Assembly: GCA_023247725.1 (NCBI GenBank)
Contig: JAHFFW010000025.1
Coordinates: 1 to 37,925 of the forward strand
Direction of reading: 5' to 3'
Origin: Candidatus Omnitrophota bacterium
Lineage (GTDB): Bacteria > Omnitrophota > Gorgyraeia > Zapsychrales > JAHFFX01
DNA length: 37,925 bases
Shown: one piece after another, positions 286 through 2,369 of the stretch
Position numbering within the stretch: position 1 is the stretch's first letter
Layout: every line of letters starts with the position of its first letter
The notes under the pieces: model-generated
Seen by the model: the letters and a program-made list of their open reading frames with translations, nothing else
Told to the model about the DNA's origin: nothing
Database searches by the model: none
Program-made: the position numbers and the translations under genes

Positions 286-315
286 AAAAAAACTCCCACC
301 TGTAAGGTAGGAGTT
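286..315 (-). terminator. Intrinsic terminator downstream of fba
   Basis: A 10-bp stem with one mismatch (arms 291-300 and 306-315, loop TGTAA) is followed on the minus strand by a run of seven T. It lies about 125 nt past the aldolase stop codon and would end that transcript. Confidence 0.8.
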
Positions 316-368
316 ATCGGCTAAAAATTCTTTAGCGTTGATCGGCGAACTCCATCGCCTGTTCCCGA

Positions 369-1557: not shown

Positions 1558-1627
1558 AGGTAAAATTCCTGTTTCTGCAAATTCCCTACGTTACCTCTGT
1601 AAATTTTCTTTATGCGGTAAAAATACG

Positions 1628-1674
1628 CGGGGGGCCGGGCGACCTCGCCTAACACTGGGTCGCCCGGCCCCCCG
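1628..1674 (-). terminator. Very stable GC hairpin behind the second cold-shock gene
   Basis: A perfect 17-bp stem (1628-1644 with 1658-1674) encloses a 13-nt loop. On the minus strand it is followed after a few bases by TATTTTT. It lies 18 nt past the csp stop at 1692 and upstream of the fba promoter, so it probably terminates the csp transcript. The U-tract is imperfect. Confidence 0.65.
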
Positions 1675-1691: not shown

Positions 1692-1895
1692 TCAAGCAAT
1701 CGCCCGCACATTCAGGGCCCGTGGGCCTTTGGGAGACTTCTCTACCTCAAATTCCACACTCTGGTCTTCTTTAAGATCACTGAAAGGAATACCAATCAGA
1801 CTTTGCATATGAAAAAATACTTCTCTGCCGTCGGTGGCGTTGATAAACCCGAATCCTTTGTCACGAACGACCTTCTTGATTTTTCCGGTATGCAT
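1692..1895 (-). CDS. Cold-shock domain protein (second, terminator-gated copy)
   Basis: A 67-residue single cold-shock domain, expected to bind single-stranded RNA/DNA and act as an RNA chaperone. The RNP1-like GFGFI and RNP2-like VFFH motifs are present, although the canonical KWFN near the N-terminus is replaced by KIKKVVRDKGFGFI. It is more divergent than its upstream neighbour. The start at 1895 is chosen because GAAGGAGG lies 7 nt upstream; the longer open frame reads back into a terminator hairpin. That Shine-Dalgarno starts one or two bases after the U-tract of the terminator between the two csp genes, so this gene seems to depend on read-through. Family assignment is firm. Confidence 0.88.
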   Translation of the reverse strand: MHTGKIKKVVRDKGFGFINATDGREVFFHMQSLIGIPFSDLKEDQSVEFEVEKSPKGPRALNVRAIA

Positions 1896-1913
1896 CAGAC
1901 GCCCTCCTTCAAT

Positions 1914-1943
1914 AAAAAAGGCCCGGGACAACCGGGCCTTTTT
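1914..1943 (-). terminator. Symmetric intrinsic terminator between the two csp genes
   Basis: A perfect 12-bp stem AAAAAGGCCCGG/CCGGGCCTTTTT has loop GACAA and T-rich flanks on both strands. It starts 14 nt past the stop of the first csp gene, and its U-tract abuts the Shine-Dalgarno of the second. Only read-through transcripts can carry the second gene with its ribosome-binding site. Confidence 0.88.
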
Positions 1944-1957
1944 GGTTTCTTGGAGAT

Positions 1958-2158
1958 TTATCTCTTCACGACATTGGTCGCTTGCTGACCTTTGGGACCA
2001 GTGGTGATTTCAAACTCCACCTTTTGGCCTTCACTTAAGGTCTTAAAGCCTTCTCCCTGGATAGCACTGTGATGAACAAACACATCACTGCCATTCTCTG
2101 GGGTGATAAAACCATACCCTTTTTGGTCATTGAACCATTTGACTGTTCCGGTAACCAT
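1958..2158 (-). CDS. cspA: Cold-shock protein, CspA family
   Basis: A 66-residue canonical cold-shock domain with the nucleic-acid-binding signatures [12 protein letters not shown] (RNP1) and VFVHHSAI (RNP2), ending in the usual [10 protein letters not shown]. It is predicted to be an RNA chaperone and transcription antiterminator that melts weak RNA hairpins. The start is supported by AGGAGG upstream. The gene is first in a two-gene unit with the divergent csp at 1692-1895. It is driven by a strong promoter through a 5' UTR of about 176 nt, long UTRs being typical of cold-inducible csp genes. Which E. coli paralogue it corresponds to cannot be told. Confidence 0.93.
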
Positions 2159-2236: not shown

Positions 2237-2300
2237 CTCTGGCGTTTAACCCAGAGGCAGAAAAAAAGCCGCCAGAGAATGATCTTAACTCCCTCGCGGC
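2237..2300 (-). promoter_or_regulatory. Long csp 5' leader with competing hairpins (candidate thermosensor)
   Basis: On the minus strand, GCCGC (2300-2296) can pair with GCGGC (2272-2268). CTCTGGCG (2277-2270) can instead pair with CGCCAGAG (2244-2237), using part of the same GGCG. A second CTCTGG (2256-2251) competes for that same CCAGAG. The pairings exclude one another, as expected of a temperature- or protein-responsive leader. This was read by eye and not folded computationally. Confidence 0.5.
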
Positions 2301-2340: not shown

Positions 2341-2369
2341 AGCTTAATGGAAATTCTTCTCTGTGTCAA
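2341..2369 (-). promoter_or_regulatory. Strong sigma-70 promoter of the csp operon
   Basis: TTGACA (2364-2369), a 17-nt spacer and TAAGCT (2341-2346) lie on the minus strand. The predicted start near 2334 gives a 5' UTR of about 176 nt. The promoter lies just past the stop of the UDP-glucose dehydrogenase gene. Confidence 0.78.

Follow-up and report, generated by a model that had tools for sequence, protein, structure and literature searches.

The window, that is, the whole 37,925-nt contig JAHFFW010000025.1 of an Omnitrophota-like genome (labelled G000:C18), carries two adjacent cold-shock genes, csp1 and csp2, on its minus strand, together with a leader and two terminators (Table 1). Omnitrophota is an uncultured phylum and is represented here by metagenome-assembled genomes. 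Each protein consists of one cold-shock domain that covers its whole length (PF00313, cut-off 27 bits; scores in Table 1), and both fell short of the 120-bit cut-off for the CspE-type equivalog NF049933 (114.3 bits for csp1, 63.9 for csp2). In a protein search the close relatives of csp2 were nearly all from Omnitrophota, the best being from Candidatus Omnitrophota. Unlike csp1, the csp2 product (GKIKKVVRDKGFGFI) lacks both the Trp and the Phe that a KWFN segment usually supplies, which suggests a different nucleic-acid preference. The GC hairpin 3' of csp2 is the probable end of the operon.

Table 1. Features of the csp1-csp2 locus, with positions in the window.
Feature	Position	Strand	Evidence or remark
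Sigma-70-type promoter of operon, TTGACA-N17-TAAGCT	2341..2369	-	TTGACACAGAGAAGAATTTCCATTAAGCT, 211 nt upstream of csp1 ATG
P1a, leader 5'-end strand AGUAAAUAA	2318..2326	-	Pairing with P1b, with covariation support
Motif GGGAGUAGAA, complementary to 3' side of T1 loop	2308..2317	-	Alignments A1 and A2
T1, leader terminator: hairpin 2300-2268 and seven-U tract 2267-2261	2261..2300	-	R1 match and covariation
P1b, GCCAUUAUUUACU; partner either P1a or csp1 start codon	2188..2200	-	Pairing, folding and covariation tests
csp1 Shine-Dalgarno AAGGAGG, inside loop of P2	2175-2169	-	
P1c, AGUGAAUAAUGGU, around csp1 start codon	2154..2166	-	Pairing and covariation tests
csp1, 66-aa CspA-family cold-shock protein	1958..2158	-	Pfam CSD, 108 bits
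T2, csp1 intrinsic terminator: stem 1943-1915, loop 1931-1927, U6 1919-1914, AUU	1911..1943	-	
csp2 Shine-Dalgarno AAGGAGG, adjoining T2 U-tract	1903..1909	-	Sequence
csp2, 67-aa divergent cold-shock protein	1692..1895	-	Pfam CSD, 68.9 bits
16-bp GC hairpin 3' of csp2	1623..1673	-	Sequence; T-run starts a few bases past stem

The csp1 stop codon (TAA, 1960-1958) is followed on the minus strand by T2 and then by the csp2 ATG at 1895, the spacer reading AAAAAGGCCCGG-TTGTC-CCGGGCCTTTTTT-ATT-G-AAGGAGG. The T2 arms AAAAAGGCCCGG (1943-1932) and CCGGGCCTTTTT (1926-1915) form 12 perfect pairs about the loop TTGTC; a 7-bp GC core lies within this stem, with the six U residues directly 3' of the core, and these are followed by AUU (1913-1911), G1910 and the csp2 Shine-Dalgarno. 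By sequence T2 is thus a GC-rich hairpin with a U-tract, i.e., an intrinsic (Rho-independent) terminator, and the perfect 12-bp terminator described in an earlier sequence-only reading of this DNA was confirmed. That reading had the U-tract ending one or two bases before the Shine-Dalgarno; the near-contact is real, but the interval is three bases (AUU) past the last contiguous U, or none when AUU is counted with the tract. An inverted-repeat scan listed the 12 pairs of T2 on the plus strand, because the minus-strand U-run sits within the stem.

The csp-terminator-csp order of the window recurs in relatives. Loci collected with the csp2 protein and with the leader model described below included 58 csp1-csp2 tandems, of which 48 were distinct; 47 of these homologous pairs had a spacer long enough to be counted, and a hairpin of -10 kcal/mol or lower was predicted in 46 (median -22.8), which is more than chance. 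At least seven pairs (L009, L016, L041, L086, L159, L160, L187) resemble the window in having the GC stem about 8-11 nt from the Shine-Dalgarno. The U-tract score of T2 in the window, 4.76, is in the upper quarter of the pairs, and because this U-tract is strong, read-through of T2 may be small. The spacers of L011, L013, L017, L033 and L042 hold a second short hairpin, which ends at GGCAGA(GA/AA)GG, the csp2 Shine-Dalgarno region. Sequestration of the csp2 Shine-Dalgarno by a CCU/CUCC following the csp1 stop was considered and set aside; CC occurs there in 28 of the 48 pairs but is not specific to them, since it was also found at 29 of 65 csp1 genes without csp2.

The sequence-only reading argued that no room remains for a promoter ahead of csp2, so that the gene needs read-through, and this was supported by a scan in which the promoter score was the best TTGACA-N16-18-TATAAT match out of 12. 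The csp1 coding region plus spacer gave at best 7/12 in the window and no more than 8/12 in all 48 pairs, whereas 116 of 128 leaders upstream of the first gene held matches of 10/12 or better, a comparison tilted somewhat toward the leaders by the longer stretches (420 nt) scanned there; a same-length control, csp2 with its downstream sequence, reached a score of 10. Because promoter-like sites are common in the leaders and absent before csp2 in the 48 pairs, csp2 very probably depends on read-through. An own promoter of non-canonical type within csp1 or T2, with T2 merely insulating two genes, would fit a scan that covered sigma-70-type sites and found none inside csp1 or T2, and some pairs (L006, L023, L145) do have a long spacer. 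Nevertheless, transcripts starting upstream of T2 must still cross it, a start downstream of T2 would give a transcript with practically no 5' UTR in the case of the window, and no candidate exceeded 8/12 among the 48 pairs; we regard such a promoter as very improbable.

Several observations bear on what kind of terminator T2 is. The GGCCCGG..CCGGGCC hairpin is found as well 3' of csp1 genes with no csp2 behind them, CCCGG lying within 80 nt of the csp1 stop in 33 of 65 such genes versus 29 of the 48 pairs, and because this is the identical hairpin type, T2 is probably the ordinary 3' terminator of csp1 and not a dedicated switch. The stem core is modestly weaker in the pairs (median -16.5 versus -20.1 kcal/mol, p = 0.003) and U-tract quality is alike (p = 0.94), both p values being optimistic for related sequences. 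In the closest relative found, G001, a csp1 that is 86% identical has nearly the same leader and a strong terminator with no csp2 behind it, and in G003 (L085) and at about eight other loci csp1 is missing and the leader terminator precedes csp2 only. Since csp1 has its terminator without csp2 and csp2 occurs without csp1, csp2 is a passenger behind one terminator or another. These data leave unsupported the earlier suggestion that the first Csp could switch on the second via T2. Its premise that CspA-family proteins are antiterminators does hold in E. coli, where CspA, CspC and CspE make the metY-rpsO terminators less efficient and CspD does so at several terminators (PMC4347634, PMC9765468), but nothing links this activity to T2 in particular. 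A feed-forward circuit, with Csp1 protein melting or blocking T2 to turn csp2 on, would agree with those effects, with the need of csp2 for read-through and with the CspE-like character of Csp1, which scored just below the equivalog cut-off. Against it, the T2 type is unchanged where csp1 has no csp2, csp2 can follow the leader terminator with no csp1 between them, neither an antiterminator specific to T2 nor a conserved loop was found, and the action of Csps on terminators is selective, E. coli Csps differing in the terminators they affect; we consider the circuit unlikely. Less probable again is that T2 serves mainly in RNA processing or stability, the dicistronic mRNA being cut near T2 and the hairpin protecting the csp1 3' end: hairpins lacking a good U-tract in L008, L011, L013, L021, L028 and L103 would suit such a role, but most T2 hairpins, including that of the window (U score 4.76), have a classical U-tract.

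With T2 as the ordinary terminator of csp1, the control point would move from the intergenic region to the csp1 leader. The plan of csp1 leaders is a promoter, then GUAGUAAAUAAg-GAUUAGAAAUCU-nGCCGnAAGG...CUAACCUUnCGGUUUUUUU...CAUUAUUUACUAU...AAGGAGGUAGUGAAUA-AUG; the window is laid out likewise, in letters of its own (P1a, GGGAGUAG, T1, P1b, Shine-Dalgarno and start-codon strand), GGGAGUAG (2317-2310, minus strand) being the counterpart of the GAUUAG strand. The motif GGGAGUAGAA takes the form GAUUAGAA in many relatives. A covariance model of the leader 5' half, R1, matched the window at 2258-2335 of the minus strand (55.6 bits, 1.4e-7) and had matches in 181 of 285 Omnitrophota genomes; a local search with R1 matched most csp1 leaders of the order to which the window belongs. 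Among 31 sampled genomes with csp-bearing loci, either outside Omnitrophota or of uncertain placement, strong matches were confined to G305 and G306, two unclassified MAGs that the model already included; the weak matches, in Pediococcus and in one Bacteroidetes MAG, resemble ordinary intergenic terminators. The leader was not recognized as a member of the Rfam cspA family (RF01766): L027 with its coding region scored 78.6 against a threshold of 78, the match was gone without the coding region, and RF01766 matches were discounted because the csp coding region is part of that model. The L027 leader alone had no significant match in Rfam, RF01766 included. At gathering thresholds the window likewise showed no RF01766, its sole Rfam match being a fluoride riboswitch (RF01734, 45.9 bits, 301-368, minus strand) followed by a terminator-like hairpin at 315-291; the gene it serves presumably lies beyond the contig edge, because there is no ORF of at least 40 aa before the contig end.

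Covariation was assessed for three helices by tests that ignore relatedness, so clades may supply part of the signal in the values that follow. The T1 helix, in an alignment fitted to the R1 model, was paired in 93.1% of cells compared with 88.0% in shuffles (0 of 500 reaching it) and at most 60.2% in slid versions, and 49 cells were changed on both sides compared with 14.2 in shuffles. Helix P1, between the 5' end and P1b, was paired in 83.6% of cells (79.8% shuffled) with 47 both-sided cells (22 shuffled), and helix P2, between P1b and the start-codon region, in 74.2% (70.8% shuffled) with 80 (47 shuffled). Neither the paired percentage nor the both-sided cell count of P1 or P2 was equalled in any of 500 shuffles; columns with both-sided changes were not significantly more numerous than in shuffles for P2. 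One slid version of each of these two helices gave both-sided counts near or equal to the true register, with far fewer cells paired. Matched strands exceeded swapped partners for both helices, and a same-sense control showed no such gain. A csp paralogue in the same genome (G000:C30:12096-12177; L117/L004/L228) has a leader of the same plan, with a P1 helix and a U-tract hairpin, in which almost all letters are different; P1 is kept there as AGTTAGTTTATGA / TCATGAACTAACT (L004/L228), and L207 keeps it likewise. Complementarity between the motif and the T1 loop was 9.07 for matched versus 8.11 for swapped sequences (sd 0.12), whereas a local hairpin before T1, AAGAUU-AGAA-AAUCUU, did not covary (8.06 matched, 8.33 swapped); this comparison of sequences supports pairing of GAUUAG with the T1 loop over the local hairpin.

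Since P1b is the common strand of P1 and P2 and both helices covary, the two would be mutually exclusive, the pair of alternative folds expected of a cspA-like leader. Folding of the window placed the start-burying P2 below P1 by 3.6-8.1 kcal/mol between 4 and 45°C (equilibrium energies; 4.6 at 37°C and 8.1 at 4°C), and at no temperature in that range was the start-free fold the more stable. The folding thus predicts no equilibrium switch, and cold induction would therefore be kinetic or protein-driven, with the start-free state only transient, protein-held or cold-trapped; a lower energy of the start-burying fold is what a metastable switch would need.

The genes behind the leader were identified for the R1 matches. 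Of the 30 top matches in the phylum, 29 lay upstream of csp; the exception was at a contig end. A further 80 included 63 assigned automatically to a same-strand csp and five more with csp in place where the automatic pattern failed; the rest preceded a small Cys/His-rich protein and DEAD-box helicase (7), a B12-binding-domain protein (2) or one unknown gene, or were truncated (2). Both of these gene types, helicase and B12-binding, also lie 3' of csp2 in many tandems. In E. coli, csp genes and DEAD-box helicase genes are cold-shock genes, and the leader-linked genes largely have cold-shock functions. The Cys/His-rich protein, of about 55 aa (KVKTSYKGRKCKxPHCKHILSIYNHExYCHVH), lies with the helicase behind a T1-type leader in L125, L167, L171, L173, L185, L193 and L196; in L185 the leader U-tract abuts the Shine-Dalgarno, like T2 in the window. 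The B12-binding-domain protein (MKIVLIEPRA..ANVYSK) is behind the leader in L155 and L156, and 3' of csp2 in L007, L011, L013, L022, L024, L027, L032 and L033.

The sequences show how the locus is built, where promoter-like sites lie, what is conserved and that T1, P1 and P2 covary. The reading that we favour, at a probability of about 60%, is that the leader decides and T2 trims: an attenuator (T1) and a P1/P2 start-codon switch would control expression, and T2 would be a passive, leaky terminator of csp1. Both genes would form one transcription unit from the sigma-70 promoter, and the leader would control entry, T1 stopping most transcripts unless bypassed. Bypass could plausibly come from pairing of the T1 loop or arm with the GAUUAG/GGGAGUAG strand that lies upstream, through a weak A/U-rich helix that could form better in the cold or with bound Csp. 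In transcripts past T1, UUAUUUACU (P1b) would first meet the 5' end to form P1 with the start codon free, and would later meet the start-codon region to form P2 with the start codon buried, giving a cspA-like translational switch. T2 would cap a short csp1 mRNA, a minority of polymerases continuing into csp2, which would then be made at a lower level by read-through. Abundant Csp proteins may raise this read-through without T2 being a dedicated sensor; by analogy such assistance is possible, and it is not specifically indicated here. Within this scheme we infer that the signal is temperature or Csp, and likewise the order and kinetics of these events and the csp1:csp2 ratio.

Neither an intrinsic terminator within an operon nor a csp leader able to fold in alternative ways is new in kind. 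Like the E. coli cspA mRNA thermosensor (RF01766), the Omnitrophota leader is long, lies upstream of csp and can take up alternative folds that hide or expose the ribosome-binding region; it differs in carrying a terminator with a U-tract and in a defined exchange of strands between P1 and P2. The metY-rpsO case, with CspA, CspC and CspE, and that of CspD share with T2 an intrinsic terminator inside an operon and Csps as candidate antiterminators, but T2 is the csp gene's own 3' terminator, is not specific to csp-csp pairs, and is known here at the level of sequence. The conserved motif, alternative helix, terminator before the Shine-Dalgarno and reuse at several operons are shared with riboswitch and ribosomal-protein leader attenuators, from which the present leader differs in a gene set that points to temperature or Csp/helicase status and in having been found, in the genomes searched, only in Omnitrophota. 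Where partial terminators lie inside operons, the upstream gene is similarly made in excess and the downstream gene by read-through; here both genes encode small cold-shock proteins, and the second Shine-Dalgarno touches the U-tract. A literature search found no description of a terminator-bearing, start-switching csp leader across one phylum, the one paper that mentions Omnitrophota together with cold shock doing so incidentally. On balance we lean toward seeing in the leader a cis-regulatory RNA that is new and occurs across the phylum. As a cold-shock attenuator it would have T1 under the control of a GAUUAG-type strand, and one partner strand would be contested by the 5'-end strand and the csp start codon; it would serve repeatedly, ahead of operons for csp, DEAD-box helicase and B12-binding protein, and csp2 would be further gated by T2 read-through. 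If so, a whole uncultured phylum would govern its cold-shock genes by a single conserved leader that combines a terminator with a start-codon switch, and a cold-shock regulon of csp, helicase and B12-binding protein would be defined by this RNA element. It would then be testable by what means Csp levels are set and a second Csp is held sub-stoichiometric by read-through.

Some csp1 leaders (L017, L022, L024, L027, L031, L032, L042) have an extra domain, CCCGUUAGAAAUC...GGUAAAGGUGAUAAAGAUUUCUAACGGG, within P1b; UUUAC is repeated on both of its flanks, as if an element had been inserted, and the domain repeats the GUUAGAAAUC motif.
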